A stretch of DNA of 64,000 nucleotides from assembly GCF_003268635.1 (NCBI RefSeq), contig NZ_CP029639.1, positions 4,537,501-4,601,500 of the forward strand, read 5' to 3'. The position numbers and the translations under genes were made by a program. Below are positions 8,783 to 64,000 of this stretch, one piece after another. Position 1 is the first letter of the stretch, and every line of letters starts with the position of its first letter. The DNA comes from Paenibacillus sp. DCT19. Its GTDB lineage: Bacteria > Bacillota > Bacilli > Paenibacillales > Paenibacillaceae. The notes under the pieces are model-generated. The model worked only from the letters and a program-made list of their open reading frames with translations. It had not been told where the DNA came from and did not search any database.

Positions 8783-9837
8783 TTATTCTGCTGCTGGAGA
8801 CGCAGTCACTTTACCGGATAACGTATCCTGCAAAGCTTGCTTCGCATTCGCCAGCTCTGTCTCGTTAATATATACATATGGACTTCTCCACTCGCCTGTC
8901 ACTGGAATATAGTGTACATCCGATTTAGAAATATCCCAATACGTAGAAATAAAGTTTTTCATTTGTTCTGATTCCACATCTGTGGTCATATTGTCATCCA
9001 CTGCTCCAATAACCTTACCGATTTTGGTTACACCACCTAGTGATTTCATCTGATCCAGCATTGAATTCAGCACTTGGTTTTGGCGTTTATTTCGGTCAAA
9101 ATCGTTGGATTCTTGTGTTTTGGGATCACAATTAGATTTACGGTAACGGACGAAGTCAAGCGCCTCTTTACCATCCAAATGTTGCGGGCCTGCTACGAGA
9201 TTAATATCCGTACCATCTCTTGTATCTCGGTAACACATATTTTTATCTACAGTCACGTCTACGCCACCAACTGCATTAACAGCATCGCGGAAAGCTTGGA
9301 AATTCAGGACAGTTGTGTAATTGATGTCCACACCAAGATACTTGCCCATCATTTCTTTCATCTGATCTTCCGCTTTTTTACCGGAGGTTTTTTCTTGTGC
9401 CTTGAATTTTGGATAGTATGAGTTCAATTTATTCGATTTATATCCATCCAATACAATGCGTGTATCCCGTGGTAGCGACACAATCGTTGCCGTTTTGGTC
9501 TCAGGATTCAAGGAAGCCACCATCACCACATCGGATAGATAGGTTCCTGTCTCAGGACGATTATCTGTACCTAATAGCAGCATCGTAATCGGTTTGGTTT
9601 TGGCTGACATACCTGGAGGTACCGGTTTATCAATACCTGTATCCGCTACTTGGTTGTAGACCCAGTAGATATATCCAGCCCCACCAATATGCCGATGACG
9701 AACAAACTGAGGACAATCTTCGCAAATGCTCGCAATCCTTTTTTCTTTTTCTTCGGTTGACCCTTGCTATTCTTCGATCCAGAAGTACTTGATTTCGTCG
9801 GTGCCTGTCTCCGTGGAGGTAAGCCGTTTGAATTCAT
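8783..9837 (-). pseudogene. LytR-CpsA-Psr (LCP) family cell-wall transferase, frameshifted
   Basis: LCP proteins attach teichoic acids or other anionic polymers to peptidoglycan at the outer membrane face. The N-terminal part (start 9837, AAAGGTG upstream) has a Lys-rich cytoplasmic tail (QPKKKKKGLRAF) and a transmembrane helix (IVLSLFVIGIL). The catalytic domain is in another frame (8783 to about 9690): MLLLGTDNR, SLPRDTRIVL, and later HLDGKEALDFVRYRKSN with the conserved Arg residues. The frames join if one base is added to the C run at 9679-9682, giving ILVGAGYIYWVYNQ across the junction and a protein of about 351 residues. A sequencing error is more likely than real inactivation, because the same defect recurs in six other genes here. 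Confidence 0.85.
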
Positions 9838-9929
9838 ATCTTCAACACCTTTATCACATCTGTTTTTTTGTCTAAATAAAAGACAACCGCTTTCCCGAGG
9901 GAAAACGGATGGATTGTACAAGACAACAT

Positions 9930-10226
9930 TTATGAGTTTCGTGCGGAAGTTTCCGCCTTTTTCTTTTGTCGACCTTCAATAAAATAGCGCACTCGTACTA
10001 ACAACATCAAACCAACCGCTACCAGCAAACATTGAATGATGGGAAGCTTATCGATCTGAAAAATAAGAAGCATGAATGTGCCCATCGCCATCAACAGATA
10101 GAGGAAAATTTCCTTAACGAGTGGTAACTTCTGACGTACCCGAAACACCTTGTTGTATACGTAAGTTATTAGCACAAAGATGACGATATAGGCTACGATC
10201 GGGTGTGATGCGAACCATGCTTGCAT
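9930..10226 (-). CDS. ylaH: YlaH-like membrane protein
   Basis: A 98-residue protein with three hydrophobic segments (about 8-24, 42-56 and 60-80) and a basic C-terminus (EGRQKKKAETSARNS). It fits the YlaH-like family of unknown function. The ATG at 10226 has AAAGGAG ten bases upstream; the longer frame to 10292 lacks a site. Its place directly after typA (YlaG) on the same strand is the ylaG-ylaH order of Bacillus subtilis and is the main support. A hairpin around 9888-9905 followed by T-rich sequence on the minus strand may end transcription. Confidence 0.75.
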   Translation of the reverse strand: MQAWFASHPIVAYIVIFVLITYVYNKVFRVRQKLPLVKEIFLYLLMAMGTFMLLIFQIDKLPIIQCLLVAVGLMLLVRVRYFIEGRQKKKAETSARNS

Positions 10227-10347
10227 GTTAAGGCATCTCCTTTCGTGATCATGCTTGTATAAGTAAACTGGTTGATGGAACAACACTGCCAAGTTGATTA
10301 CAAAACCGTCGTATGAGACCGTTCCGGATTCGGATCGTTCTTTCGAT

Positions 10348-10408
10348 CGCTGTTGTCTCCAGATTTCCTAAATAATTCTTCAAAGGTTGAAATCCGGAGA
10401 CAAAGGCG
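10348..10408. repeat. Imperfect inverted repeat in the typA-ylaH gap
   Basis: Arms of 20 bases at 10348-10367 and 10389-10408 pair with three mismatches around a 21-base centre. The sequence beyond the right arm (GAACGCTTCGCTTC) is GC-skewed and unlike the flanks. There is no T run, so it is not an ordinary terminator. The rest of the 10227-10533 gap shows no gene. Confidence 0.6.
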
Positions 10409-12381: not shown

Positions 12382-12434
12382 GGTTTGTATCCATATCCTT
12401 TCCAATTTCAATTCTTATCTTATCTACTAAACTT

Positions 12435-12486
12435 CCCGCAAAATCGCAGGTTACTCACAAAATAAGCGTCGGTGATAACCCGACGC
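12435..12486 (-). promoter_or_regulatory. typA: Two hairpins in the typA leader
   Basis: Hairpin GCGTCGG/CCGACGC (12465-12486) is followed on the minus strand by TTATTTTG. A second near-palindrome (12435-12450, CCTGCGATTTTGCGGG) lies closer to the start. The first could be a weak terminator of the upstream gene or an attenuator or cold-responsive element of the leader. Confidence 0.5.
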
Positions 12487-12503
12487 ATGTCTATATCCCT
12501 TAT

Positions 12504-12531
12504 ATTATAGTTTATCATAGGTAAAAATCAA
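12504..12531 (-). promoter_or_regulatory. typA: SigA-type promoter of typA
   Basis: On the minus strand TTGATT and TATAAT are separated by 16 bases. The start of transcription would fall near 12497, ahead of the two leader hairpins. Confidence 0.65.
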
Positions 12532-12562
12532 GATATTTCGCTTGAAATCAGCACTGAGATTA

Positions 12563-13057
12563 TTACCAGCCCTTACCGCGACGTCCCCGTCCTAGTAATA
12601 ACCACACTCCACCTAAGATCAACAGGACAGCAAGTACGTAGACAATCCCTGTCTGAAGCAAGGTAAATCCGAGCAATATGACAGCTACTGCACCTATAAT
12701 CATTCCAGCAGGTAACACATACTCAGGTCTTCGACGTTCAGCTAGTCCGTATTCTAATAAACCTACAGCAACACCTAACAGAAGAACCGGCCACAACCTT
12801 GCCATCAGTCCCGCTCCCCATGTGTTCGTTATGCCGAATAATAAGCCATATACCGTTAGAATTCCCGCAGGAACAAGTGACCATGAAGGCGAGAGTCGTG
12901 CATAACGCAGCGCATGAAGAGCAATACCCGGAAGAAGGATCAACAATGGCCAGAAATGGCGCCCAATGAATCCAAACACCCCTAGCTTACCGAGCAAAAT
13001 TATCACACCTGCAACAACTATAAAAATCCCGATTGCTTTTTCATTTCTCATTCTCAT
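12563..13057 (-). CDS. LiaI/LiaF-like (DUF5668-type) multi-pass membrane protein
   Basis: About 164 residues, almost entirely membrane segments (about 6-26, 35-52, 60-80, 90-105, 115-132 and 135-152), with the repeated pattern FWPLLILLPGIAL and RLWPVLLLGVAVGLL typical of the LiaI/LiaF-like transmembrane region. The soluble C-terminal domain of LiaF is missing and the protein ends in RGRRGKGW, so it is closer to stand-alone DUF5668 proteins. No Lia-type kinase or regulator gene is beside it. The start is ambiguous: AGAGGTGAC precedes a TTG at 13066 and ATG codons at 13057 and 13051. The 300-base gap upstream holds only a terminator and no obvious gene. Confidence 0.6.
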   Translation of the reverse strand: MRMRNEKAIGIFIVVAGVIILLGKLGVFGFIGRHFWPLLILLPGIALHALRYARLSPSWSLVPAGILTVYGLLFGITNTWGAGLMARLWPVLLLGVAVGLLEYGLAERRRPEYVLPAGMIIGAVAVILLGFTLLQTGIVYVLAVLLILGGVWLLLGRGRRGKGW

Positions 13058-13293
13058 TTTCTGCAAGTCACCTCTTATCCCATTTGGCTATGTATCTCGC
13101 CTGGCTAACATACAGTCTTTTTTCGCGATGCCAGACATGCATCTATAGTATCTAGTGTAGCTGAAGTTTCGGCAAAAAACTATCCTTTATGTCATACGCT
13201 GCGGCTACTCCATATTGTAGGTTCTCTGATGTCATTCGATGATAGGCATATACTTCCTATTCTTCTCAGTAACCTTCTTGAGCAAACCAAATT

Positions 13294-13324
13294 CAACAAA
13301 AAAACCGCTCTAACCCGAGCGGCT
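13294..13324 (-). terminator. Terminator of the leftward TerC gene
   Basis: The stem CCGCTC/GAGCGG is followed by seven T on the minus strand. It lies downstream of the stop at 13370. Confidence 0.85.
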
Positions 13325-13369
13325 TGGACTTCTTCGGAGATGTGCGATCCACTTTTACAGAAAGTATAT

Positions 13370-14029
13370 TTAAATGTTTCGCCTTACAAACTTATTTGCT
13401 CCTCCAACAGCAAGAACCAGACAAGCCATGGCTGCTGGGAGCAGCGTATGTGCTTCGGTTGTCATTCCATTTAACCACTGCCCAAGCTTCGGATCGTTCA
13501 TTACCATCTCACCGGCTGTAAAAGCCAAAATTCCAGAACCGACAAACACCAAGATCGGGTATCGCTTCAACAGTCCCACGATCAGACCACTTCCCCATAC
13601 AACGATAGGAATGCTGATGGCAATACCAATAACGATCAGCGCCAGATCACCTTTGGCTAATGCAGCAATGGCCAGAACGTTATCTAAACTCATGACAAAG
13701 TCAGCGATCAAAATCGTTTGAATCGCTTTCCACGTCGTCTTTGCTTCACGAATATGTACCGCATCCTCATCCTGAAGCAATAGCTTCATGGCAATCCAGA
13801 ACAACATCAGTCCACCAGCAGCTTGAATGAAAGGAATCCCCAGCAATAAAACTGCGGCAAAGGTCAATACACAGCGTAATACTACCGCTCCAAATGCCCC
13901 CCACCACACGGCTTGCTTACGCTGCCTCACAGGTAGATCCTTACTAGCAAGCGCAATGACAACCGCATTATCTCCACTCAAAACCAGATTGATCATTAAT
14001 ATTTCCGTCAACAGCCATAAAGTATCCAT
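13370..14029 (-). CDS. TerC family integral membrane protein (YjbE-type)
   Basis: A 219-residue membrane protein with about seven helices. The N-terminal helix carries the TerC signature LVLSGDNAVVIALA and the second repeat carries FVMSLDNVLAIAALA; the acidic residues in these helices are thought to bind divalent metal. Bacilli members are linked to manganese efflux or metallation of exported enzymes, a family-level statement only. The ATG at 14029 has GGGGGG six bases upstream; the ATG at 14035 would be too close. It is divergent from a second TerC gene only 104 bases away. I saw no yybP-ykoY manganese riboswitch in that gap. Confidence 0.85.
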   Translation of the reverse strand: MDTLWLLTEILMINLVLSGDNAVVIALASKDLPVRQRKQAVWWGAFGAVVLRCVLTFAAVLLLGIPFIQAAGGLMLFWIAMKLLLQDEDAVHIREAKTTWKAIQTILIADFVMSLDNVLAIAALAKGDLALIVIGIAISIPIVVWGSGLIVGLLKRYPILVFVGSGILAFTAGEMVMNDPKLGQWLNGMTTEAHTLLPAAMACLVLAVGGANKFVRRNI

Positions 14030-14835: not shown

Positions 14836-14895
14836 AAAGGATTGCGATAATCGAATTAATCAGCTCTGCTGAACAATTTAAATGCTATTATTTTC

Positions 14896-17607: not shown

Positions 17608-18367
17608 TTACAGCGTATATTTCGCTTGCGCCTTCTCTACCTTCGCGATATAAGCTTGCGTCTCGGTAGGCAGAAGCTTCAGTGCATTCATCAGTTCTGC
17701 GTCATTGGATACACCCAGGCGTGATACACGTCCCGGTCCCGCATTGTACGCGGCGAGAGCCATTTTCACTTCTCCCCCAAAACGTTGAAGCTGAAGCGAA
17801 AGATACTTCGTTCCCCATCAATATTCTGTGCAGGGTCGAATGAATTGCTTACTCCAAGACCAGCAGCCGTTCCGTCCATCAACTGCATTAAGCCCTTGGC
17901 TCCGGCTGAGGAAACTACGTTTGGATTAAAATTGGATTCTGTATCAATAACCGCCTTGATTAACGACTCAGGCACCCCATACTTTGCACTCGCTGCAGCG
18001 ATTAAGGAATCATAATCGGTGGGTACAGTCTCTTCCCGTTCGTTGACACTGCATTCAACAGAGAGGAAAGGGATACAGTTGGACTGCTGCTTGTGGATTC
18101 TGTCAGTGGTGTACCCGAATCTGAACTATATTGGCTTCCCAATTGTAACCATAACAACCCGTCATTTGATCGTTTGGACAAACCAAGAGATGCTGAAGCT
18201 GCATCGCTACTGCTTGATCCACGGTTTCCAGTGCCTAATAGCCCGTCCATCATGTTAGCAAAATCTACAGACGAATTGGCCGCTCCGGCAGACCCGCTTG
18301 ATGGATTGGCAACGTTGGACAATTGCAGTTCAAGCAACTGCCGTGACCCAGTGGGATCAATCTGCAT
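17608..18367 (-). pseudogene. Lytic transglycosylase (SLT domain), broken by two frameshifts
   Basis: When repaired the protein has about 253 residues: a Ser/Ala-rich N-terminal region (about 1-130), then an SLT lysozyme-like domain with YGVPESLIKAVIDTESNFNP (catalytic Glu), SAGAKGLMQLM, and MALAAYNAGPGRV. Such enzymes cleave peptidoglycan between MurNAc and GlcNAc; YjbJ/CwlQ-type proteins are relatives. The three pieces lie in different frames. Adding one base to the C run at 18035-18037 joins pieces 1 and 2; adding one at 17813-17816 joins pieces 2 and 3. No signal peptide is seen. The ATG at 18367 follows GGGAGTGG by about eight bases. Two equal lesions in one gene favour a sequencing artefact. 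Confidence 0.85.
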
Positions 18368-18485
18368 GTGTATATCCACTCCCGTAAATTAAAACTATAT
18401 TCTGCCTTTATTCTACATCGTTTTACATGAATCTGCCATCATTTTCAAAAAATAAGCGCATATATATTCTTTTTTTGCACATAGA

Positions 18486-22131: not shown

Positions 22132-22166
22132 AAAAGCAGCTGCGCCCCGGGCGTATGCTGCTTTTT
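22132..22166 (+). terminator. Terminator of the subtilase gene
   Basis: The stem AAAAGCAGC/GCTGCTTTTT contains an inner GCGCCC/GGGCGT helix and ends in five T. It lies 26 bases past the stop codon. Confidence 0.85.
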
Positions 22167-24267: not shown

Positions 24268-25493
24268 ATGAATATCCCTTGGTCTAAAATGGCACTAAAC
24301 ACACCCTCCTCTGTCGTTCGCGACATGTTGCAGGCAGCTCAGGCTCCGGGCATGATTTCATTAGCAGGAGGTTTACCCGCACAATCATCCTTCCCTTTGG
24401 AAGCGATTCGGGTGGCGTATGAAAAAGTATTTGCGTCCGGATCATCCGCTCTTCAATATGCAGAAACGGAAGGATATCGTCCGCTTCGTGCCAAAATCGC
24501 GGAACGCCTTGAATCCAAAGGCATCCCCGCTTCTCCAGATCATATGCTTCTGACTACAGGATCTCAGCAATCCATTGACCTTGTATGTCGTATTCTGCTT
24601 GATCCGGGTGACCGTGTACTGGTTGAATCACCAACCTATCTGGCTGCGCTTCAAGTTATTCATTCCTACCAGGCAATATCTCACGGTGTAAGCTGTGATG
24701 ACGAAGGAATGTTACCTGAATCATTAGAAGAACTGCTGCAATTGCATCGTCCAAAATTGGTCTACATCAACCCAACCTTCTCTAACCCTTCGGGTAAAGT
24801 GTGGAGCCGTGAAAGACGTCAGAGAGCAGTAGATCTTTGCCGAAAATACGGTGTCCTGATTTTGGAGGACGACCCGTACGGCGAGATTCGTTTTAATCCA
24901 GAAGAACTGGATGCACCAGCGCTTGCAGAATTGGATGCTGCTTATGAAGGACCTTCCAACGTTATCTACACCAGCACCTTCTCCAAAACAGTTGCTCCTG
25001 GACTTCGTACAGGCTGGATCCTAGCTGCACCAGACATTGTTAAAATAGCGGCAAGAGCTAAACAGGGTGCGGATCTACACTCAAGCAGCATTGACCAAAG
25101 AGCCCTTCATGCACTGATGGAGACATTTGATCTGGATGAACACATTCGTGGAATTTCCGCTGATTATAAACAGCGTATGGAGAAAATGACTGAGCTTATG
25201 ACGAAGAAAGCTTGGGAAGGGATCTCGTGGAATTCACCGCAAGGGGAATGTTCCTCTGGCTCGAATTACCTGAATCGATGTCTGCCAGCAATCTGTTCAC
25301 TTACGGCATTCAGGAAAAAGTATGTATCGTTCCTGGTGATTCCTTCTATGCCGGCACGCCTGAATTGAACCGGATGCGGATTAACTTCACCCACACCGAT
25401 CCAGACCTGCTGCCTGAGGCTGTAGAACGTATGGATCGCGCGATTAAACGCTGGCATGCTTCGGTACAATCCGATGCTACAGTGACCATGTAA
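24268..25493 (+). pseudogene. PLP-dependent aminotransferase (LysN/2-aminoadipate type), frameshifted
   Basis: Repaired length is about 408 residues, a fold-type I aminotransferase. Visible elements: ISLAGGLPAQSSFP near the N-terminus, TTGSQQSIDLV, YINPTFSNPSG, LEDDPYGEIRF, the PLP lysine in TSTFSKTVAPGLR (near 235-247), and the C-terminal NRMRINFTHTDPDLL with the substrate-carboxylate Arg. The N-terminal 330 residues and the last 80 are in different frames. Adding one base to the G run at 25243-25246 gives SPQGGMFLWLELPES across the junction. GGAGATGAG precedes the ATG. The substrate is unknown; it is probably controlled by the divergent MocR-type regulator. Confidence 0.85.
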
Positions 25494-25830: not shown

Positions 25831-25910
25831 CTCTGTTATTACGCTATGTTCATCATGAGAATTACCATTCACATGAATGAATTCCAAATGACTAGCTGTT
25901 GTTGCAGTTA

Positions 25911-26320
25911 GGAAAGCTTACCGTAAGCCGGGTTCTGTGCTCTTCGTGGTCCATACGGGAACTACCCTCCCACCACAAGCGACAATCATCTATCTAGGCC
26001 ATACATTGCTGTACAGCTCAAGCGACCAACCTAGACACACCTCGGGCTAAGGCTGTCTCCTCCAAAGAGTCGACTGTGTCCCATTAGGTCTTGCTCCAGA
26101 TGGGGTTTACCAGGAACGAAGTCACCAGCGTTCCTCGGGGTCTCTTACACCTCGGTTCCATCCTTGCCTGTGCCGGAAAATCCGGCCATCGGCGGTCCAT
26201 TTCTGTGGCACTATCCTTCAACTCGCGCTGACTGGACGTTATCCAGCATCCTGCCCTGTGGAGCCCGGACTTTCCTCTCGTGGCAACAAGGCCACCAGCG
26301 ATTGTCTGTCAAGCTTTCCG
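25911..26320 (-). ncRNA. rnpB: RNase P RNA (A-type-like)
   Basis: The catalytic RNA that trims tRNA 5' ends. On the minus strand it begins GGAAAGCTTGACAG and has the universal segment GAGGAAAGTCCGGGCTCC, then GTGCCACAGAAATGGACCGCC, GGTAAACCCC, GCAAGACC, CTAGATAGATGATTGTC and ACAGAACCCGGCTTACG. The 3' end GTAAGCTTTCC pairs with the 5' end as helix P1. The order of these blocks follows the ancestral A-type RNA of E. coli rather than the B-type of Bacillus subtilis, which has GCCACAGTGACG and a different middle. Ends are set from helix P1 and are accurate to a few bases. Confidence 0.93.
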
Positions 26321-26334
26321 AAACAACATTACAT

Positions 26335-26363
26335 AGTATACAAGGATTTCAGTTTACAAACAA
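26335..26363 (-). promoter_or_regulatory. rnpB: Promoter of rnpB
   Basis: On the minus strand TTGTTT and TATACT are separated by 17 bases. The -10 box ends about 15 bases before the start of the RNA. It lies between the yqfO stop and rnpB. Confidence 0.65.
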
Positions 26364-26398
26364 GCTTAATATTAATGGAAGCATTGGAACAAGCACGT

Positions 26399-27514
26399 TT
26401 AGAGGAAACGGAATACTTCTGTATTTACCTCTGATGCTGTCACCTGTGTTTCATAACGTTTATGAACTAAGCGCTCCCGCAGCCAATCGGCTGTTTTTGG
26501 CTTCATAATTTTCTCGGCATTATGTCCAACATCAATGATGCTCATGCCTGCCATCAACGCATCGTGAGCCGTATGATAATCGATATCCCCAGTTACGATC
26601 ACATCTGCTCCTTTGAAGCGTGCGGTAAGTGTATAACGGCTACCTGAACCACCAAGAACTGCCGCCTTTTTCACCTTACGGCTTAAGTCTCCTACCACGC
26701 GGACGTGAGACACGTCCAGTTGGGTCTTCACGACGTCAACCAGCTCTTCGAGTGTCATTGATTGTTTGAGCGGTCCCAAGCGCCCCAGACCAAGCGTACG
26801 GCCTTTTAAATCCATAGGATACAGGTCGTATGCAACTTCTTCATAAGGGTGAGCCTTTAACATCGCTTGTATAACCTGACTACGCAGACTTTGCGGCACA
26901 ACCGTCTCGATACGCATTTCCTCTACACGTTCCATCTGTCCCTGAGTACCAATAAAAGGCTGTGTGCCTTCTCCAGGTACAAATGTACCCGTTCCTTCTG
27001 TATTGAAGCTACACTTGTTATACTGCCCAATGCTGCCAGCGCCTGCTTCTAGAATAGCGTTTAACACTTGTTCATGATGTGTACGAGGAACGAATACCGC
27101 CAGCTTGAAAAGATGATCCGTATGTACATCTTCCAGTGACTCTTTGCTATCGATTCCGATCGCTTCTGCCATCCAATCGTTCATACCGCCCTCTGCTACG
27201 TCTAGGTTCGTATGACTGATGTACACCGCAATATCATGCTTAATCAGCTTTTCGTACAGTTTTCCCATAGGTGTATCGGTTGTTAGAGATTTAACTGGAC
27301 GGAATATAATGGCATGATGCGCAATAATGAGATTGGCACCTATGCGAATCGCTTCCTCAACTACTTCATCAGTGACATCCAAAGCAACAAGAACGTGTGT
27401 TATTTCCTTTTGCAGACTCCCCAGCTGCAGTCCGATTCGGTCATCAGGTACAGCTAAATGTTTGGGAGCAAGCTGCTCCATCAATTGAATTACAGTTTGA
27501 CCTTTGGCAAACAT
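26399..27514 (-). CDS. yqfO: Nif3-like dinuclear metal centre protein (YqfO)
   Basis: 371 residues. The Nif3 domain halves flank an inserted domain, as in Bacillus YqfO. Metal ligands are seen in LIIAHHAIIF (two His), YISHTNLDVAEGG and, near the C-terminus, GDIDYHTAHDALMAG and IDVGHNAEK. The insert (about 130-230) contains VVPQSLRSQVIQAMLKAHPYEE in pieces typical of the PII/CutA-like domain. The family is annotated as GTP cyclohydrolase 1 type 2 homologue, but the physiological role is unsettled. GGAGGTATTGGC lies upstream of the ATG. Its first 25 bases overlap the end of trmK, which indicates coupled expression. Confidence 0.9.
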   Translation of the reverse strand: MFAKGQTVIQLMEQLAPKHLAVPDDRIGLQLGSLQKEITHVLVALDVTDEVVEEAIRIGANLIIAHHAIIFRPVKSLTTDTPMGKLYEKLIKHDIAVYISHTNLDVAEGGMNDWMAEAIGIDSKESLEDVHTDHLFKLAVFVPRTHHEQVLNAILEAGAGSIGQYNKCSFNTEGTGTFVPGEGTQPFIGTQGQMERVEEMRIETVVPQSLRSQVIQAMLKAHPYEEVAYDLYPMDLKGRTLGLGRLGPLKQSMTLEELVDVVKTQLDVSHVRVVGDLSRKVKKAAVLGGSGSRYTLTARFKGADVIVTGDIDYHTAHDALMAGMSIIDVGHNAEKIMKPKTADWLRERLVHKRYETQVTASEVNTEVFRFL

Positions 27515-28247
27515 GCCAATACCTCCTTCAATTTCGCAATCAGTTGTTCTACATCCGCGGCCTTCTCACGAGCAGATTCTTGATCGGATTTCATGATCGA
27601 CTGCACCACACCCTGCAGCTTAACGATCTCACTTTCCCATTTGGCGAAAAATACGTCTGTCGGTTGATCTACCAGATATGGCCCCATGCGAAGCAACAGT
27701 TCCTCCGTCAACTCTACATCATTCGTGATGAGACGGGGCTTGTATACTTCTTCATTCGCAATGGGACTGCTCGCTTGTGGCATAGCCGTAATAATTTCAT
27801 AGATCTTGCCATCTTCCTCAAGCAGCTTCTCCGCAACGACCACCCAGTTGTGAGCTAGAAGCCACCGTCTCAGGATATCCTCACCTACATTGGGTTGTAG
27901 GATAAGCAGGCTAATCCCTCAAGCTTGGACAGACCACGATCCAGAATGGATGCAATTAACGCTCCGCCCATACCCGCAATTGTAATTACGTCCACTTCAC
28001 CTGGCTCTACCACATCAAGACCGTCTCCGCGGCGAACCGTAATTTTCTCTTGCAGACCTGCATCACTCACTTGTTTCCGGGCTGCTTCATAAGGTCCGGG
28101 ATTCACTTCACCAGCTATTGCACTTACAACGATACCGCTGCGAACTGCTGCTACAGGTAACAACGCATGGTCTGAACCAATATCCGCTAAACGGCTTCCC
28201 TCCGGAATTTGTACATGTATTTGCTGTAATCGATTCGAAAGTTTCAT
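27490..28247 (-). pseudogene. trmK: tRNA (adenine-N1) methyltransferase TrmK, frameshifted
   Basis: TrmK makes 1-methyladenosine at position 22 of tRNA. Repaired length is about 252 residues: a Rossmann methyltransferase N-terminus with LADIGSDHALLPVAAV, EVNPGPYEAA and ITIAGMGGALIASIL, then a C-terminal coiled-coil domain (about 170-250). The two parts are in different frames. One base added to the C run at 27916-27918 gives LEGISLLILQPNVGEDILRR across the junction, the expected catalytic-loop motif (LQPN). The start ATG at 28247 has AGGTG just before it. It lies between rpoD and yqfO as in Bacillus subtilis. Confidence 0.88.
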
Positions 28248-28377
28248 GACACACCTACACCATTCATTAAATTTATTGATTTGCATTGAACAACGAAAAG
28301 CGATAAAATAAAATCCAATCAAACATTTCAAGGATGAATTACCAAAACCAAGAAATTAAGACACTCAATTTAAACAT

Positions 28378-28431: not shown

Positions 28432-29571
28432 TTATTCGAGGAAATCCTTGAGTCGTTTACTGCGACTCGGGTGACGCAATTTACGAAGAGCTTTGGCTTC
28501 GATCTGACGAATCCGCTCACGCGTAACGCCAAATACTTTGCCGACTTCTTCTAGTGTTCTCGTCCGTCCATCATCGAGACCGAAGCGCAGACGAAGTACA
28601 TTTTCTTCCCGTTCAGTCAATGTATCCAGAACATCCTCAAGTTGCTCTTTCAACAGTTCATACGCGGCAGCATCAGCAGGAGCCAATGCCTCCTGATCCT
28701 CAATGAAATCGCCCAGATGGGAATCATCTTCTTCACCAATTGGCGTTTCAAGGGAAACCGGTTCCTGTGCAATCTTCGTAATTTCACGCACTTTCTCAAC
28801 ACTCAGATCCATTTCAGCAGCGATTTCTTCTGGTGTTGGTTCACGCCCAAGCTCTTGTAATAGCTGACGGGATACCCGGATCAGCTTATTAATCGTTTCT
28901 ACCATGTGTACAGGGATACGAATTGTCCGTGCTTGGTCAGCAATGGCACGAGTGATCGCTTGGCGAATCCACCATGTCGCGTACGTACTAAACTTGTAAC
29001 CTTTTTTGTGGTCGAACTTCTCAACTGCTTTGATCAGACCCATGTTACCTTCTTGAATCAGATCGAGGAACAACATGCCGCGTCCAACATAACGCTTAGC
29101 GATGCTGACAACGAGTCGCAAGTTGGCTTCAGCCAAACGACGCTTCGCTTCCTCGTCCCCATTCTCAATCCGTTTAGCGAGTTCTACCTCATCGTCTGCG
29201 GACAATAGCGGGACACGACCAATTTCTTTGAGATACATACGGACAGGGTCATTGATTTTGATGCCTGGAGGCAAGCTCAGATCATCATCAAAGTGGAACT
29301 CATCGCCCTCTTCTCTGTTGTTGTTTTCCGAATCCTCGCTCGGACGAAGAGTTACCTCTTCATCATTCTCGTTAACAACATCAATACCGAGATCGCTCAA
29401 TTGCTCATAGAACTCATCCATTTGCTCTGCGTCCTGCTCAAACGGGGAGAGTTTTTCAATAATTTCTTTGTAATTTAGCGAAGCTCTTTTCTTACCTGAT
29501 TCAATCAATTGATCTTTAACCTGATCCAGCGTCAATTCTGTCTCTAGTTCAGTATGCTGATCATTCGCCAT
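28432..29571 (-). CDS. rpoD: Primary RNA polymerase sigma factor SigA/RpoD
   Basis: 379 residues. Region 1.1 with a long acidic stretch (about 1-100), region 1.2 [16 protein letters not shown], region 2 with [14 protein letters not shown] and [17 protein letters not shown] (-10 recognition), region 3 with [16 protein letters not shown] sequence, and region 4 with [20 protein letters not shown] (-35 helix-turn-helix). Length and motifs match SigA of Bacillus subtilis. The ATG at 29571 follows AGGAGGAGGG; the longer frame adds nine residues without support. It directly follows dnaG, with 42 bases between. Confidence 0.97.
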
Positions 29572-29613
29572 AATTCGACTCCCTCCTCCTAGAAACATCC
29601 AACACTCAGACGT

Positions 29614-45651: not shown

Positions 45652-47016
45652 TTACACAGGTAGAGCTTGTTGCACTACAATACGAGTACCTTCTGCCTTA
45701 ATGACGATAATCGGTGTATCAATAGGAATAAAATCACCATCTGATACAACATCGACCCGCTCCCCATTCAACATGGCGGTTCCAGACGGACGAAGCGGAG
45801 TAAGGCTGATTCCTTGCATTCCAATCAGTTCCTTGCGTTCTGTCGCTGAGGAGAACCCACGATCAGCAGACAGCTTCTCACTCAATATGAATCGATTCCA
45901 GATGCCCTTATCCTTAAACAGAATGACAACGATCGCGATAACTACGAGCGCAGCTCCAAAGGCAATACCGAGTGATACAAACGCATCGCTTGTGTCGTAC
46001 GCTGCTCGCACAACACCAGCAACGAGTGCGATAGATCCGAGAATACCCAGTATTCCGAAGCTCGGTATAAACATCTCAAGAATCATCATGATGAGGCCAA
46101 CAGTGAATAATACCCATGTCTCTGCTCCGGCAAAACCAGCAATATAGTTTCCGGAGAAATAAAGTACAAAACATACAATACCAACAATACCAGGTACTCC
46201 GAAGCCAGGAACGATCAACTCAATGATCACCCCTGCAATACCGAGGAATAAGAGCACAGTCATAACCACAGGGTTCGTAAGGAATGTAGAGATGTTCTCA
46301 GCTGTGGTTCTTTCCACTTTGAACACATCATCCTGACTGTATCCTAACCAGGCAGCCGCCTCTTCTGGAGTGTTACTAATATGGTCTGCGTATCCAACTT
46401 TTAAAGCTTCTTCTGCCGAGAGTGCAATAATTTCACCTTTTTGCTTGGTTTTATTAATCTCTGGCATTTCTACGACCATATTAACGTCCGTCATTCCAGC
46501 GGCAATTTTGCCATCGCGACCACTTTTTTCAGCCGCTCCTTGCATTTTACTTTTCCAAAAGGCAACGAGTTTTGGATCATCTACATGTTTACCCGTACTG
46601 TCCACCATCGCTGCCGCACCAATCATGCTTCCTGGCGACATTACGATCTTATCCGCATTCAAGGCCAAAAAACTACCTGCAGAAGCAGCGTCACCGCGCA
46701 CAAAAGCTAAGGTTTCAATCGGGCTATCTTTGATCAAGATTCCCAGTGCTTCCGCAGTATCAACACGTCCTCCCGGCGTATTAATATCCAGAACAATCAG
46801 GCCAGCGTTCATGCTCTCAGCTTCTTTGAAGCCGCGCTCCATAAATTTGCCAAGCCCCTGCTCGATTGGTTTGTCAACCGGAATAATGTATACGGCGCCG
46901 CTCTTCTCAGCCGCATGTGCTGAAGGCGATCCAATCCAAACAGGAAGCAACAGCGTCAGCAGCATCAAGAGCATGAATGGCCCCGTAAGCATCTTCCGGT
47001 GCTTTCCCTTCACCAA
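45652..47016 (-). CDS. NfeD-type membrane serine protease (YqeZ)
   Basis: About 454 residues: signal peptide (to about SAHAAE), a ClpP/SDH-class protease domain with LDINTPGGRVDTAE and DAASAGSFLALNADKIVMSPGSMIG (catalytic Ser in ASAGS), four or five membrane helices (about 240-370), and a C-terminal NfeD OB-fold domain (GMQGISLTPLRPSGTAML). Partner of FloA. The start is TTG 47016 or GTG 47013 after AGGGGGATTA. The 160-base gap to floA shows only a weak hairpin near 45614-45642. Confidence 0.92.
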   Translation of the reverse strand: MVKGKHRKMLTGPFMLLMLLTLLLPVWIGSPSAHAAEKSGAVYIIPVDKPIEQGLGKFMERGFKEAESMNAGLIVLDINTPGGRVDTAEALGILIKDSPIETLAFVRGDAASAGSFLALNADKIVMSPGSMIGAAAMVDSTGKHVDDPKLVAFWKSKMQGAAEKSGRDGKIAAGMTDVNMVVEMPEINKTKQKGEIIALSAEEALKVGYADHISNTPEEAAAWLGYSQDDVFKVERTTAENISTFLTNPVVMTVLLFLGIAGVIIELIVPGFGVPGIVGIVCFVLYFSGNYIAGFAGAETWVLFTVGLIMMILEMFIPSFGILGILGSIALVAGVVRAAYDTSDAFVSLGIAFGAALVVIAIVVILFKDKGIWNRFILSEKLSADRGFSSATERKELIGMQGISLTPLRPSGTAMLNGERVDVVSDGDFIPIDTPIIVIKAEGTRIVVQQALPV

Positions 47017-47261
47017 TAATCCCCCTTTTCCTTAATTGTTATACTGTCCAGCTTATGGTTGTTATTACGTACCAATCAGCATTTCGTTTCAAAATCTTAA
47101 AATTATATTTGAATCTTGCGACAATTGCAACATTTATAATCCAATATCATGTTCAATATCCAATTTAAAGAAAAAAGTAACGCATTTATTCACCATTTGT
47201 CCAACGCTGTAAAACATAAATTTATTCCTGCTTCAAAAAGCCAACATGCTCGCTTATAGTG

Positions 47262-47300
47262 TTTCACTAAGAGTGCTTCACTAAGAGTCTTTCACTAAAG
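47262..47300. repeat. Three tandem 14-bp repeats
   Basis: TTCACTAA occurs at 47263, 47277 and 47291, each within a 14-base unit TTCACTAAGAGTGC or close variant. They lie between nfeD and yqeY. The rest of the 47017-47358 gap shows only AT-rich sequence and the yqeY terminator. Confidence 0.75.
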
Positions 47301-48766: not shown

Positions 48767-49411
48767 ATGGGCAGAGAGTTTGTTCCTTTATTTGACCAAT
48801 GGTCTAATAACTATGATCTAACCGTAACAGGACACAACGAGCAGTATCAGGAAGTGTTCGAAGATTATGAGAAAATTCTGCATTCTGTAGTCTCCGAGGT
48901 ACATGGTACGATTTTGGAATTTGGCGTAGGGACGGGAAATCTCACCGAAAAACTAGTGGCAGCAGGTCATAAGGTATATGGAGTAGAGCCTTCACGAGGT
49001 ATGATTCAACAGATTCAACGACGAAAAATAAATTTTCAATTGTTTGAAGGTGACTTTCTGGACTTCCCTCCTTTGACTGAACCCATTGATGCCATCGTGA
49101 GCACGTATGCCTTTCATCATCTAACAGATGCAGAGAAGGAACAAGCGATTTCAATATACGCCAAGCTGCTGCAGCCTCATGGGAAAATCGTATTTGCGGA
49201 CACGATCTTTCAAAATCAGGACAGTCGGCGCCAGATTGAAGAAGAAGTGGCATCTCAGGGCTATTCGGGACTGCTCACCGATCTACGGACGGAGTATTAT
49301 ACAACGATTGAGGTACTACACCCCATATTATCGAAGCATGGTTTTAGAACAAACTTCTCCCGCTTGAATAAATATGTATGGTTAATGAGTGCACAAAAGG
49401 AGATTGGTTAA
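48767..49411 (+). CDS. yrrT: SAM-dependent methyltransferase (YrrT-like)
   Basis: 214 residues, class I fold: motif I ILEFGVGTGNLTEKL, acidic loop GVEPSRGM, and post-I DAIVSTYAFHHLTD. It begins FVPLFDQWSNNYD like YrrT of the Bacillus subtilis yrrT-mtnN-mccA-mccB operon, which belongs to methionine-to-cysteine conversion; the substrate is not known. GGAGGATATTTAGGTA lies upstream. Just one base separates its stop from the mccA start. The gap upstream has TATAAT-like sequence near 48706 and an AAATTCC motif near 48667 that could be part of a CymR site, but I could not confirm it. Confidence 0.82.
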   Translation: MGREFVPLFDQWSNNYDLTVTGHNEQYQEVFEDYEKILHSVVSEVHGTILEFGVGTGNLTEKLVAAGHKVYGVEPSRGMIQQIQRRKINFQLFEGDFLDFPPLTEPIDAIVSTYAFHHLTDAEKEQAISIYAKLLQPHGKIVFADTIFQNQDSRRQIEEEVASQGYSGLLTDLRTEYYTTIEVLHPILSKHGFRTNFSRLNKYVWLMSAQKEIG

Positions 49412-49412
49412 T

Positions 49413-51470
<2,058 letters not shown>

Positions 51471-52416: not shown

Positions 52417-55400
52417 CTACAATGTTTCCAGCATAACTCTGGAGCCGCCACCAGCCTCACTTGCCGGAATGACAACCAACTTACGTGCTAGACGTGCCCG
52501 CAGTTCAGGCACGTGGCTAATCACACCAACGGCCAGGCGGTCGTCATGTAATTTTTCCAGCGAGGTTATCACCGTGTCTAATAGTTCAGGATCAAGTGTG
52601 CCGAACCCTTCATCCAGGAAAAAGAACTGCAGTGGGTACTGCCCACGAAGCTGAATCTGTGCGGACAACGCCAATGCTAGCGACAGCGAGGTTAAGAAGG
52701 TCTCGCCACCCGACAAGGTGGACACCGGGCGTTTCACCCCACCGTTTGCATCGTCACAGATGACAAATCCACCACCAGAATCGACTTCAAGCGAATATCT
52801 CTGTTTGGTCAAAAAGCGTAATCGCTGGGATGCCGCCTGGCTGACTTGCATCAGTTGCTCTTCAGCAATGTATTCTACGAATGCGTTACCGCGGAAAGCC
52901 GATTGCAACTTACTCAGCAGCTCGCCTTCTCGGCTAACGTCCACTCGCTTGTTCTCCAGTTCAGTCCAGCGTACGTGGCGTTGCTGAACATCTTCCAAAT
53001 CCCGCTCAGTCCGAGCTTTGGCGCTAAGTGCCGCTTCATCCTCAGTCCTTCTCTGCCGTAACTGTTCCGTGCATGCCATCCACTGCTCTTCAGACACCTC
53101 AGCTCCCGCAAGTTTCTGCTCCAGTTCTCGTAATTGGGACGCCAGCTCACGTTCCTGTTCGCGGTGTTGCTGGATGGCCGCAGCTAGTCGTTCTGCCTCC
53201 TCGGAAGCGATGGCTGCCTGCATTACAACCTCCTCCGAAGTGAATGGCGATTGCTCCAGCAGTTGCTTCCAGCGCCCTTGCGCCTGCTGCAGATGCTCGC
53301 CAGCAGAGGCAGCTGCCTGATGAGCAATAACGTCTTTCTTCGCTGACTCTTGTTTCAGAATATCTGCTTCCTTGTAACGCTGTGCTGCTTCTGTTGCAGA
53401 AGTTCTTAATCGATTCAGCTGAGCCTGCGCAGCAGCAATCAGGTCTTCTACTCGTTGTTCACCAACCCATTGCCGTAACCGTTCTTCCTTCTCGGCAAGT
53501 TGTTTACTGTTGCCCTGCCACTCCGTCTGCCACTGGATTAATTGTTTATCCAATTCAACCAGCTTACGCTGAAGTGATTGAACGATCTCTTGCTTCTCCT
53601 CAAGGAACGTCACGCTTTTGTTCAGACGTTCCTTGATGTCCTCGGCGCGTGCATCGCGCTCCTGCATCGCCTGAACTAAGGCCTTGGCCTGCTCCGGGGC
53701 GATGTCAGGCAGTTCCGCGGCCCAGCGATCGCGCAGCGCTGTCGCTGCCGCCTCGCTCTCGGCCAGCTTGCGCTCCGCCTGGGCGAGCCCGGCACGGCCG
53801 GCTTCCTGCGCAGCAGCCGCCTCCATGCGGCGCTGCTGTGCGCCTGAGGCCGCCTGTTGCAACGCAGCGGCCTCCGCTTGCAGCGGCGCTGCGGCGTCAG
53901 CCAGCGTCCGCGCGGCTTCGCGCAGCGCGGCGGCACGCGCCGCCCAGTCCGCCGGGGAGCGCCCGTTCACGGGCGACTCGGCGGGCTCGGGCTCCGCTGC
54001 CGCAGGCGCGGCCTCGGCTGCGGACGGAGCTTCGCCGGCCGCAGCGCCAAGCTGCGTCAGCAGGCTGCGACGTTCGTGCAGCTGCTGGCGCAGCCCAAAG
54101 CGCAGCTCCTGCAGCTCCGCGTGCAGGCTGCGCAGCAGTTCCAGGTCCGCATCGTCTGCGTGCGGACCTTCTCCCGCCGGCGCAGCCGGGAGCGGGTGGT
54201 GTGCGGAGCCGCACACCGGGCATGGCTCGCCATCGCGCAGCTCGGCGCGCAAGGCGGAGGAGAGCCGGTGCAGCTCCTGCTCACGCATCGCGCCCCGCAG
54301 CTGTTCCTCCGCCCCAGCCAGCATGCTCTGCTCGCGTCCAATGTCCTGCTCGCATGCAAGCAAGGCTTCAAGACCTGCGGCCGCCTGCCCAATCAATTGC
54401 TCACGCTGTATGCTCAGGCGGCCCTCCTCTTCCGTGATCGCCTGGAGCTTATTGGCTCCCTGTGCTGCTGATTGCTGGCTCGCCTCCAGCTCCACTTTAT
54501 TCTGACGTAACTGCTCTGCTACCGTGTCGATCCGGTGCTGTAGCTCCAATGCAGACTGTAGCTGTCTCCGCTCATCGGCTTTCACTTCATTGGGCTTCAG
54601 GCTCTCCTGTAATTCTTCCCGCCGTTTACGTCCACGCTGTTGCAACTCTTGCTCTTTCTCCAATTGTTGATTCACAACCGTCTGTTCGGCTTGACCTTGC
54701 TCAAGTAATTGCTTCAGACGTGAAGCATCTTCACGGAGCCCATCACGTTCCTTTTGCAGTTCTTTCGCCTGTTCCAGTTGCTCCAGACGCAGCATTAATT
54801 TAGGCTCTTCCTCAGACAATTGCACTCGGGTAGCCTCTGCCTTTTCCGCTTCGAGAACAGACTGTTTCTCATGTTCTATCGCTTGCTGATGCGCAGTCTC
54901 AGCTAACTGCTGACGCAGCTGCTGCTCGGCCATAGCTTCACGCATCGTTTGTAATGCAGGCAGAATCACATCCGCTGCACTAGCCTGCTTCAAACGTTCT
55001 TCACCTTCAACAATGTGTGCATCCTGTGCCTTTAACTTACGCTGTTCATCTAAGCGAGATTGACGCTCATGACTCCATTCACGAATTTTGCCCAGCTGCT
55101 CGGCTTCCTTCGTTGCCTCTTCTAGCGCTTTACGAGACAAGGCAGCAGCACAAACTGCCTCTTGAAGAAGCCGAGCCGTCTCCTCAAGCGTCTCCTTACT
55201 TGCATTGCCTAATCCTTGTTGCTCTGCAACAAGGGATTGGTGAACCATATCATTATTCTTCACTCGCCTGCTCAACTTGATGGCAAGCTGGTCTCCGTAT
55301 TTCTCCAGATGGAAAAGCCGCTGCAACATTTGACGTCGCTCGCTGCCCTTCAGTGACAGGAATTCAGCAAATTTCCCTTGTGGAAGAACAACCGCACGCG

Positions 55401-55836
55401 TAAAATCATCCATTTTGAGTCCGATTACATCTTCGACAGAACGGTTAACCTCGGCTAATTTATCCGCGAGCACATGATCTTCCCCGTTAATAGTCTCAAT
55501 GAATTTACTAACGGTATTGCTTACAGATACTTCATTATTTCGTTTGAACCGCCGCTCCACTCGGAATCGACGCGTACCTTCCGCAGATGATAATTCAAAC
55601 GTAAATGCAACCGATAATGCGTCCTCGGCATGATTCATAATGCCCTGCGTACCATTCACCGCACGTTCTACTTTTCCGTACATCGCTAGGGTAATGGCAT
55701 CAAGCAACGAGGATTTTCCACTTCCCGTAGGCCCAAAAATACCGAATAAGCCCGTCTCCGTCAGCACGGTAAAATCAATTTCCTGCGTTTCACGATAACT
55801 CTGTAGACCAGCCACTTTTAACGAAATCGGCTTCAT
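52417..55836 (-). CDS. sbcC: Exonuclease subunit SbcC
   Basis: 1139 residues of the SMC-like Rad50 type: Walker A GIFGPTGSGKSSLLDA near the N-terminus, long coiled coils, the zinc hook CPVC (near residue 540) and the C-terminal signature STLSGGETFLTSLSLALALS plus Walker B FFLDEGFG. With SbcD it opens hairpins and cuts double-strand ends. The coiled coil after the hook (about 53640-54340) is strongly Ala-rich and far more GC-rich than the rest of the gene. The start overlaps the sbcD stop by four bases. Confidence 0.95.
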   Translation of the reverse strand: MKPISLKVAGLQSYRETQEIDFTVLTETGLFGIFGPTGSGKSSLLDAITLAMYGKVERAVNGTQGIMNHAEDALSVAFTFELSSAEGTRRFRVERRFKRNNEVSVSNTVSKFIETINGEDHVLADKLAEVNRSVEDVIGLKMDDFTRAVVLPQGKFAEFLSLKGSERRQMLQRLFHLEKYGDQLAIKLSRRVKNNDMVHQSLVAEQQGLGNASKETLEETARLLQEAVCAAALSRKALEEATKEAEQLGKIREWSHERQSRLDEQRKLKAQDAHIVEGEERLKQASAADVILPALQTMREAMAEQQLRQQLAETAHQQAIEHEKQSVLEAEKAEATRVQLSEEEPKLMLRLEQLEQAKELQKERDGLREDASRLKQLLEQGQAEQTVVNQQLEKEQELQQRGRKRREELQESLKPNEVKADERRQLQSALELQHRIDTVAEQLRQNKVELEASQQSAAQGANKLQAITEEEGRLSIQREQLIGQAAAGLEALLACEQDIGREQSMLAGAEEQLRGAMREQELHRLSSALRAELRDGEPCPVCGSAHHPLPAAPAGEGPHADDADLELLRSLHAELQELRFGLRQQLHERRSLLTQLGAAAGEAPSAAEAAPAAAEPEPAESPVNGRSPADWAARAAALREAARTLADAAAPLQAEAAALQQAASGAQQRRMEAAAAQEAGRAGLAQAERKLAESEAAATALRDRWAAELPDIAPEQAKALVQAMQERDARAEDIKERLNKSVTFLEEKQEIVQSLQRKLVELDKQLIQWQTEWQGNSKQLAEKEERLRQWVGEQRVEDLIAAAQAQLNRLRTSATEAAQRYKEADILKQESAKKDVIAHQAAASAGEHLQQAQGRWKQLLEQSPFTSEEVVMQAAIASEEAERLAAAIQQHREQERELASQLRELEQKLAGAEVSEEQWMACTEQLRQRRTEDEAALSAKARTERDLEDVQQRHVRWTELENKRVDVSREGELLSKLQSAFRGNAFVEYIAEEQLMQVSQAASQRLRFLTKQRYSLEVDSGGGFVICDDANGGVKRPVSTLSGGETFLTSLSLALALSAQIQLRGQYPLQFFFLDEGFGTLDPELLDTVITSLEKLHDDRLAVGVISHVPELRARLARKLVVIPASEAGGGSRVMLETL

Positions 55837-57016
55837 TTTGCTTCAGCCTCCTCACGAACACCCGGCTCGTCCTCATCGACAAGCTCCAGGAATAACTGTA
55901 CGAGCTTCTCTTCAGGCTCTGCACCACCGGTCTGCCGCTGATAGAACTTTCGGAACAATTCATGCACAGGCAGCTCAGAGCGTTGCTCTAACAGACCTGC
56001 TGCAGCCATCTCGGGATACACCGGACGAATGTGAATGATACCTTCATGGGATCTTCGAAGCTGCTGGATTTCTTTTAACGACATCGCATCCTCTAGCCAT
56101 ACTTCCATATCCACGAAGGCCTGGGCATCTCGTCCTTCCTCTAACCAACGATGCACCTCGGCAAGCCCTCCTCGCGCCTTCCAGCGAACAAGGGACGACC
56201 ACAGGTTAGCAGCACTTCTTCCACATGTGGCACGCCACCAGGTGCCAGATCCACCATCGTCACCGATTTACTCTGTCCAGCTTCTGAGAAGCTGTAGGCG
56301 AGTGGCGAACCGCTATAACGAATAATACCGTCTCCCTTGACCGCCTGAGCACGATGCAGATGTCCGAGTGCGGTATATTGTGCACCTATAGACAGAGCTG
56401 AAGGATCCACCGTGTAGGCACCACCAACCTGAATGGGACGTTCGGAATCACTTTCTACGCCACCAAGCACATAGATATGACTCATGGCTAAATTCACTGT
56501 ATCTGGTCGGAATGATGCCGCCAAATGCTGCATCAGCATCCCTACACGCCGGCTGTAAGCTTGACGAAGTACATTCTCATCCCCATCCGTTGTCAGCAGT
56601 TCGTTTAATCTAGCTTCAGACGGATAAGGTAATGCAGCAATGTTAGCCGTTTCACCTGTACGCTTTGCATGAATGGTCACTGCTTCCGAAGTAGGCATTC
56701 CTACAAGCGTGATCCCCTGTCTATTTACAAGTGGCGTAACCGATGCAACCCGTTCAGGCTGATCATGGTTTCCCGCGATGACCACAAGCGGTCTGCCCCG
56801 CTCGGTAAGCCTTGCAGCTGCCTCATAGAATAACTGCTCTGCAGAAGCTGGAGGGTTCACTGAATCATACACATCACCAGCCATTAAAATAGCATCAGCC
56901 TGCTGATCGTCTGCCAGTTTAACAAGCTCATCCATAAAGTCTTCCTGTTCCCGCAGACGGCTCCGACCTTCGAGTGTTTTCCCCAAATGCCAGTCTCCTG
57001 TATGCAAAATACGCAT
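55833..57016 (-). pseudogene. sbcD: Exonuclease subunit SbcD, frameshifted
   Basis: Repaired length about 394 residues. Mre11-type phosphoesterase motifs are intact: HTGDWHLGKTLEG, LMAGDVYDSVNPP, VIAGNHDQPERV, and GHLHRAQ. The C-terminal 107 residues (capping domain ending VREEAEAK) are in another frame. Adding one base near 56189-56194, most simply to the run of three G there, gives CGRPLVRWKARGGLAEVHRW across the junction. The product forms the nuclease with SbcC. AGAGGGGATG lies upstream of the ATG. Confidence 0.9.
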
Positions 57017-61545: not shown

Positions 61546-64000
61546 AACGTTTCCCCTCCCTTGTTGTGGGATAACAACTCCCATATTTGCTGTTTGCCTG
61601 GTCTCGATAAGAGATTATATTCATTACCTTCTATATTCTCATCAAACTGACAGACTGGTTTATACGGACAGAAAGTACATGCTACTTCCTGCTGGATACG
61701 ATAAGGCTCGATGCCCACGTCCCCGTCCGTAATCCGTGTACCAATCTCTTGAATATTACTTCGTACTGTTGCAAGCAGCGTATCCCATTGCTCAGGCGTA
61801 GCTACAGCCGCACTGCTGTAAAAACTACCATCTGCTTTCAGTGCAACCGGAATGATCGCAGAATAACCTTTTTCCAAGGTATGATCCATTTGAGCGATGT
61901 TATCTCGATCTGCGAGCAATAGTCCTTTCATTTTGAAACGTTTCAGCAGCTCTTGTCCTGCCTGCTCCGAGGTCATGCCATTAGAGGATTGCAGTAGCGG
62001 ATTATGCACATGGAAATATAGCGTACCCCAGGCATCGCAGACTCGCCAAGCCATTCCTCAGCCGAACTCAACAACACTTCCAGATACGTAAGCATCTGTA
62101 GTGACAGACCATAATAAACTTCGTGTAGCTTGAGATCCGTCTGGCTTGACTTATAGTCAATGACTCGTAGCAAAAGTCCATTTTCCCCTTCAGCCACATC
62201 TACACGGTCAATTCGACCAACAATCTCCATCACACAACCATTTTCTAGCTCAAAACGTAGCGGCGGCAACGGCTTGCCTGGTCCAAAATCAAGCTCCAGC
62301 CCAATCGGTTCATAACTGCCCCGTCTAGACTGTTCTCCCAAAATAACGGAAGCTCTGCTGACTATCTCCTTCAACTTGCGGAAAATATAACCGTACCGTT
62401 TGGTGCTAAGCAAAATTTCTCCTTGAAGCTGTGGAGCGATCTGTTCTACCGTCTGCTCTGCCTCTTGTCGGCATTGCTCTGGAGATAAACTCCCCCAGCT
62501 ACGATTTTCTTCACGTAAGCGCATCGCCAACTGACTGAGTGCAGCATGAAATAATTGTCCGATGTCTGGTGCTTGAAGACGGTAAAGCTGGCGATCCTTC
62601 AATCGTAATCCATGAGAAGCAAAGTGAGAGAAAGGGCATGCTACAAAACGTTCCATCCGGGAGACACTTGTGCGAACTTCCGTACCATACAATCTCCGAC
62701 TAGTGGATGTACGAAGTGGTAACGCCCGATTGCGATAAAAGACAGATCCCAGTAATCTCTCTAATAGCGGTTTGCTGCTTTCTTGCGAAGCATGCCAGTT
62801 GTACACCGCCCACCATAATTCTGGAATGTCTTCACCCCGGCGCCATCTGCGCAATTGTCCAATTAACGTAGATAAGCTCTGTTCAGGATGACGAACATAG
62901 GCCCAATGATTCTGTGAAGCTACTGATCCCTGAGGTTCCGTAAGAAGAGGCTGTTCCTGTTTGCCAAACATGTTCCGTACATGTCGTACAATTTCCGAAG
63001 GAAGCAGCGACTTCCCTTCATCATCCGCTACAGGATAACTTAACCACAGCTGGTCACTAGCTGATGTTAAGGCTGTATAGATTAGAAAACGCTCGTCCAA
63101 CATTTGTCTGGTCACACCAGGTCCCAGAGGCAAACCTCTTTCTGTTAATAAAAGCCGTTCCTGCTCAGTCAATACACCATCCTCTTGAGGTACAGCCGGA
63201 AGTTCTCCATCCACCGCCCCAAGAATAAATACATACTTGATATCCTGCAGGCGCGTCCGATCCATTGAACCAACGAGCACCTGATCCAGTGCAGGTGGAA
63301 CCAGACCCAATTTAAGTTCCGTTAGTCCAGTCTCGATCAATCCAGCAAACAAATCCAAATCCAGTCGCTCGGCTCCCATCATATCGACCATCTGATCCAG
63401 CAGATCCAGAACGGCTCCCCACATTTGCCGATGCTCGCGCGAACGTTCCGGATCACCTTGAGCGGTAGCCTCTGTAGACATCGTCTCCAGCTTCCACGGA
63501 ATCTCGGCATCTTCAAGCAACGTGTATAATGCAGCGCACTGTTCCTTGGCTGTCTTCGCCTTGCTCATTCGTTTCTCAAAAGCACCCATGGGATCTGTAA
63601 TAACCGTACGGCACTTTTCCATCAACGATAACATTTGTTCACGTCCGCGGCTCCGATTGTCCTGACCGTTGTCCTCCAGCGACAAGCTAGGCACATACTT
63701 CCAAGGCTTGCCGTCAGTCCAGCGGTATCCGTGAATACCACAAGCCAGGATGTAATTTTCGAGTTGATCCATGTCCTCACGACTCACTGAACCATCACGA
63801 GGCAGAAGCAGGTCTGTTTTGACACAACGAAATACATCTTCGTAGCGCCAGCGACGACGAACAACATCCAGTGCCGAACGAATAAACTCTGCGAGCGGAT
63901 GATGCAGCTCACTTCGTCTACGGTCCAAGAAGACAGGGATGTTATAATCTCGGAACAATGGCTCGGCAATATCTGCATAAGCATCTAACTGACGAACCAA
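61542..64000 (-). pseudogene. addB: ATP-dependent nuclease subunit AddB, partial and frameshifted
   Basis: The C-terminal part of AddB; its start lies past the right edge. Visible: the inactivated helicase region (YVFILGAVDGELPAVPQED), the nuclease motif LLRVIDYKSSQTDLKLHEV, and the 4Fe-4S ligands FVACPFSHFA and CTFCPYKPVC. The last 150 residues are in another frame: adding one base to the C run at 62026-62029 gives SAMPGGTLYFHVHNPLLQ across the break. AddB binds Chi and cuts the 5' strand. Its stop overlaps the addA start. Confidence 0.9.

Follow-up and report, generated by a model that had tools for sequence, protein, structure and literature searches.

One-base deficits at short G/C runs, most probably consensus errors, break genes across the closed assembly of Paenibacillus sp. 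DCT19

The 64,000-nucleotide stretch of DNA analysed here (the window) corresponds to positions 4537501-4601500 of the genome of Paenibacillus sp. DCT19, a single contig of 6,667,063 bases whose assembly has a completeness score of 99.98%. A scan of named genomes places the window in Paenibacillus, within the amylolyticus/tundrae group; nearest by query protein, among the 27 loci returned, are Paenibacillus sp. Root52 (98%) and P. tundrae DS1314 (97%). At the DNA level, the window is 93.2% identical to Root52 and 92.8% to P. tundrae, which are 96.2% identical to each other, and 63.1 of its 64 kb align to Root52 in unchanged order. When the 59 Root52 open reading frames (ORFs) of at least 70 amino acids from the matching stretch were compared with the window by tblastn, 56 found a match; the genes that change frame internally are exactly the seven in which a preliminary description of this DNA had located eight frameshifts, and the changes fall at the places it named. 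A ninth break was sought among the 56 matching ORFs, and none was found.

Five of the seven genes lie on the reverse strand. A LytR-CpsA-Psr (LCP) gene, whose pieces span 8786-9837, is broken at 9679-9682, within a C run that is one base short relative to both Root52 and P. tundrae (tblastn frame change at 9679-9682). The pieces of an SLT-domain lytic transglycosylase gene span 17611-18379 and are separated by two breaks, the first at 18035-18037 (frame change at 18020-18035) and the second at 17813-17816 (frame change at 17814); both coincide with C runs one base shorter than in the two relatives, the first with one flanking substitution. The trmK gene (PF04816; pieces spanning 27496-28331) is one base short of both relatives at 27916-27919 (frame change at 27891-27918), with the exact missing base ambiguous, whereas in sbcD (pieces spanning 55836-57016) the shortened element is a G run at 56189-56194 (frame change at 56162-56228). 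The addB gene, which extends past the end of the window, has a C run at 62026-62029 that is one base short relative to both relatives, the missing base again being ambiguous (frame change at 62027). On the forward strand, a class I/II aminotransferase gene (pieces spanning 24268-25490) is interrupted at a G run one base shorter than in both relatives (25243-25246; frame change at 25245), and an mccA-type gene of the CysK/CBS family (main pieces 49407-50329) is one base short of Root52 at 49602-49607 (frame change at 49604-49607), where the missing base is likewise ambiguous. Pfam confirms the names of the LytR_cpsA_psr, SLT transglycosylase, class I/II aminotransferase and TrmK products; the NCBIfam families of the others are the CysK/cystathionine-beta-synthase type, SbcD and AddB, with AddB scoring above its cut-off and the SbcD and CysK matches including some below curated cut-offs.

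Alignment to close relatives, proposed earlier as a check, showed that at every site the window lacks one base relative to each of the relatives with sequence aligned at that position. The shortfall is seen against both relatives at seven sites and against Root52 alone at the mccA site (49607), because P. tundrae retains just residues 289-318 of mccA. At four sites (9679, 17813, 25243 and 56192) the run is unambiguous and its flanks are identical, and at 27916-27919, 49602-49607 and 62026-62029 nearby substitutions obscure which base is missing. The assertion that each frame is mended by one added base rests on a one-base length deficit against the relatives at each site, the repair itself being read from this comparison of lengths. 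That losses occur and gains do not is correct for the broken ORFs and fails between genes, where the window also has run gains (for example at 13118 and 13314); similarly, the restriction to G/C runs applies to the breaks in the window and does not extend to all sampled blocks, where 8 of 48 coding one-base losses lie at A/T runs.

Frameshifts common to related strains had been named as one observation that would count against sequence error, and no break is shared by any relative examined. The transglycosylase, aminotransferase and trmK genes are each in one frame in all 31 relative rows, with no shared frameshift; these rows represent 27 distinct genomes, four of which were entered twice and one of which is Root52, the source of the queries, so that 26 genomes besides Root52 were covered. 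The LCP, sbcD and addB genes are in one frame in all four relatives compared, and mccA is in one frame in one of two, the other (P. tundrae) carrying a gene remnant and no frameshift. Among the best 120 of 3481 homologues of the sbcD piece above threshold, 119 are 389-395 amino acids long and one has 307.

Two other frame changes in the window were rejected as candidates: one at the 5' end of mccA (49407-49411), which lies upstream of the likely start codon, and one at the end of a small ORF (26164-26508) that is probably no gene. The latter overlaps, on the opposite strand, a class A RNase P RNA (RF00010, 262.5 bits; 25909-26317, reverse strand), and its frame varies in 6 of the 31 relative rows, equivalent to five distinct genomes. 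The region at 49378-51464 also displays a real difference in gene content beside the apparent frameshift, with mccA and most of its flank absent from P. tundrae. At 47260-47300, an intergenic short tandem repeat with a unit like TTTCACTAAGAG, in about three copies, is mostly absent from both Root52 and P. tundrae.

Run lengths were scored only where Root52 and P. tundrae have the same length. By this measure, 6 of the 19 G/C runs of at least five bases in the window are one base shorter and none is longer, while the 115 A/T runs of at least five bases include one shorter and one longer; the one-base G/C deficits in the window are more than chance would give. Three of the six shortened runs (8693, 22145 and 47021) are not among the eight breaks. 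The C run at 8693-8696, one base short of both relatives, lies just upstream of a 150-residue ORF (8232-8684) and breaks no frame; that at 22145-22148, also one short of both, is located between ORFs; and that at 47021-47025, with five bases versus six in both relatives, sits at the 5' edge of ORF 45652-47016. A shorter C run at 29588-29589 (two bases versus three in both relatives) is found just upstream of a sigma-70 factor gene (28435-29571), and the loss extends the apparent ORF start of this gene from 29571 to 29598.

The sample of the genome consisted of the window and 600 kb in five blocks (664 kb, of which about 513 kb aligned to Root52), located at 0-0.1 Mb (block A), 1.5-1.6 Mb (B), 3.0-3.1 Mb (C), 5.72-5.82 Mb (D) and 4.3375-4.5375 Mb (E), together with the matching stretches from Root52 and P. 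tundrae. Genes were represented by the 420 Root52 ORFs with more than 90% coverage in both DCT19 and P. tundrae; this coverage rule leaves mccA and addB outside the gene sample, and the evidence for both comes from tblastn in the window. A frame change is present in 59 of the 420 genes in DCT19, and in 56 of them it lies away from the ORF ends, at a total of 62 break points that leave out three near ORF ends. P. tundrae, used as a control, has a frame change in three of the 420, two of them among the 59 of DCT19. Broken genes occur in all six sampled stretches (5/49, 8/75, 12/65, 9/55, 8/61 and 17/115). At 51 of the 62 points the net shift is the same against both relatives, and 48 of these 51 are -1, so that the mixed lesions expected of a decaying genome are not what is found among these frame-shifting points; the remaining three are a -2 in ahcY and two gains, a +1 and a +2, situated early in the rplA ORF and in a Clp-ATPase ORF, ahead of their conserved domains. 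As to the longest run at each gap, it is a G/C run at 40 of the 48 -1 points and an A/T run at the other eight. Nine of the 11 core points whose net shift does not match between the relatives are in block E and two in block B. At the nine in block E the Root52 value is 0, probably as a result of Root52 DNA falling outside the kept alignments there, and the comparison with P. tundrae gives -1 at eight and +1 at one; at one of the two in block B, DCT19 agrees with P. tundrae, and so there is no DCT19 loss. Coding one-base losses were also observed at longer A/T runs, at 53819 of block A and 68925 and 96885 of block B (A7, T8 and A6 in the relatives, respectively), and these few cases indicate that some under-calling occurs outside G/C runs. 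Block B additionally contains a dispersed repeat roughly 60 bp long (L088:6023-6083); Root52 and P. tundrae carry dozens of copies of it on both strands, 87-100% identical among the matches listed.

Across the window and blocks A-D, the 496 G/C runs of at least four bases comprise 34 losses and two gains, compared to 15 losses and five gains in 2237 A/T runs of the same minimum length (Fisher p 2.5e-15 for G/C versus A/T). Loss at G/C runs rises with their length, from 13/405 at four bases to 12/76 at five, 8/14 at six and 1/1 at seven; in block E, 1/106 G/C runs of four bases and 4/27 of five bases are shortened. With either Root52 or P. tundrae scored as the odd one out, no G/C losses were found at runs of at least four bases, and P. 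tundrae in this role has three G/C gains. G/C runs of at least four bases are lost less often in coding than in non-coding DNA, both with a first coding mask (19/376 versus 15/120, p 0.011), which missed some coding runs, and with the looser mask adopted in its place (24/422 versus 10/74, Fisher p 0.022). The source of this overall difference is length 4 (coding 8/348, non-coding 5/57), since the two classes are alike at length 5 (10/63 and 2/13) and length 6 (6/11 and 2/3). By base, losses among runs of at least four are 2/15 for G and 5/64 for C in the window, 7/101 and 0/29 in block A, 5/86 and 2/30 in block B, 3/59 and 1/15 in block C, and 1/25 and 8/72 in block D. A bias by replication strand seemed possible, since block D and the window lose mainly C and block A loses G, but the pattern mostly tracks where G and C runs are located.

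Ribosomal protein L2 is essential in bacteria. In DCT19, the L2 family (TIGR01171) is represented only by two adjacent, overlapping pieces of rplB in different frames, with a net shift of -1 relative to both relatives and a longest run at the gap of only two bases as aligned. The large piece is missing no more than roughly the first 31 profile positions and could conceivably yield a shortened L2 by initiation at an internal start. It is nevertheless difficult to see how a cell could live with the one rplB in this assembly broken, and this break constitutes the strongest evidence against real mutation. Also broken are carA, pyrF, ricT, yabN, radA, disA, rlmB and a trpE/pabB-type gene that scores below the trpE cut-off, while the four class I tRNA synthetase genes (4/4) look unbroken. 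Three copies of the 16S rRNA gene were compared, at 12410-13962 and about 87.5-89.0 kb of block A and at about 19.3-20.9 kb of block D; they differ mutually by three to four substitutions. One C run is a base shorter in the block D copy than in the other two, a sign of the same error that does not depend on relatives.

Taken together, breaks that no relative shares, a loss that extends genome-wide, a rate that rises with the length of G/C runs and a break in the assembly's only rplB support the reading of consensus error. The eight breaks are real features of the deposited sequence and very probably not of the bacterium, and it is highly likely that the frameshifts are consensus errors of a closed assembly in which short homopolymers were called one base short. 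This assembly was probably built from long reads with too little polishing; homopolymers of modest length, chiefly of G/C, would have been under-called by one base with a probability that climbs steeply with run length, an under-call within a gene breaking its frame and one between genes passing unnoticed, and the genes of the living strain would be intact. Because G/C runs dominate, the platform may have been a noisy long-read one that resembles PacBio continuous reads more than nanopore R9; the available portions of the literature searched (including PMC4832174, PMC12007338 and PMC9262707) do not settle which platform was used for strain DCT19. Several points run contrary to this reading and are kept as caveats, namely the lower overall rate of loss in coding runs, the intact tRNA synthetases, the A/T losses and the rplB gap; the run of two bases at the latter and the eight A/T cases among the 48 losses imply that some losses are not plainly at a G/C homopolymer.

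A rival idea is that the lesions are real mutations of a mutator lineage, such as one deficient in mismatch repair, that deletes single bases from G/C runs and sheds genes. Slippage in such a lineage also predicts a bias towards loss and a rise with run length, loss at length 4 is rarer in coding than in non-coding runs, as selection would lead one to expect, and the four tRNA synthetase genes are intact; yet selection leaves no mark at lengths 5 and 6, at which the loss rate is greatest and coding runs are lost about as often as non-coding ones, the only rplB is broken, and a free-living bacterium with a genome of 6.67 Mb would have lost the use of about one gene in seven or eight, including carA, pyrF, the trpE/pabB-type gene, ricT, radA, disA and rlmB. 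We consider this account very unlikely. There is a somewhat larger, still small, chance that errors predominate and that a genuine pseudogene mutation underlies at least one of the eight breaks in the window. The likeliest such case is mccA, of which P. tundrae keeps only residues 289-318, so that the gene is dispensable in the group, and ordinary intergenic indels are present on all three branches; against this, the 13% gene breakage across the sample means that errors alone suffice for the seven genes of the window, and the pieces of the broken genes match Root52 at 90-100% identity (except for the short 5' piece of mccA), as do their unbroken neighbours.

Frames could also be truly shifted in the DNA, with proteins made through slippage of RNA polymerase or ribosomes at the runs. 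Transcriptional slippage at homopolymers rescues frameshifted genes in insect symbionts, and this precedent concerns long A runs, whereas the runs remaining here are mostly three to five G or C; moreover, the relatives hold the same genes in one frame, and rescue would be needed at 62 unrelated points, which makes the idea extremely improbable. Scarcely any credence can be given to the more sweeping proposition that a free-living Paenibacillus lineage really bears hundreds of one-base deletions, mostly at G/C runs and one of them in rplB, and survives by slippage or internal starts; if true, such survival would represent a new mode of frameshift tolerance.

Consensus error being the preferred reading, what the assembly presents as dead genes is an artefact and no new biology. 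Anyone using this assembly to infer gene absence, predict auxotrophy (from carA, pyrF and the trpE/pabB-type gene) or count pseudogenes would be misled, as the deposited sequence breaks 56 of the 420 genes sampled despite a completeness of 99.98%. Were the 13% rate to apply to an assumed total of about 6,000 genes, some 800 would be affected in this way, including essential ones. Scoring run lengths against two close relatives, on the other hand, offers a test that separates consensus error from evolution without reads.

Comparable error patterns are described in the available parts of two reports. The genome of Streptomyces albus SM254, sequenced with PacBio P6-C4 chemistry and assembled with HGAP and Quiver, contained 205 indels before Illumina polishing, nearly all of them in G or C homopolymers (PMC4832174). 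DCT19 resembles it in being one closed chromosome with residual indels chiefly at G/C homopolymers, and differs from it in density: the 205 indels of S. albus are spread over 7.17 Mb at 73% G+C and 262x coverage (PMC4832174), and DCT19 is far denser, with 62 coding break points in 420 genes. In the Kastor study, a nanopore R9.4 assembly of Pseudomonas syringae 508 had more deletions than insertions, most of them after runs of four to five bases, and many fragmented genes (PMC12007338). Genes accounted for 67% of its indels compared to 89% of the genome being coding, for which the authors suggest false detection of intergenic indels as a possible cause (PMC12007338); the overall rates in DCT19 show a similar relative intergenic excess, stemming from runs of length 4. 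The base preference is different, in that deletion errors at A/T were about twice those at G/C in that assembly (PMC12007338), while G/C dominates in DCT19, with 40 of the 48 coding losses. As in genuine pseudogenes, the frames of DCT19 are broken and their pieces recognisable; unlike in genuine pseudogenes, 48 of the 51 concordant lesions are -1, and the only rplB is among them.
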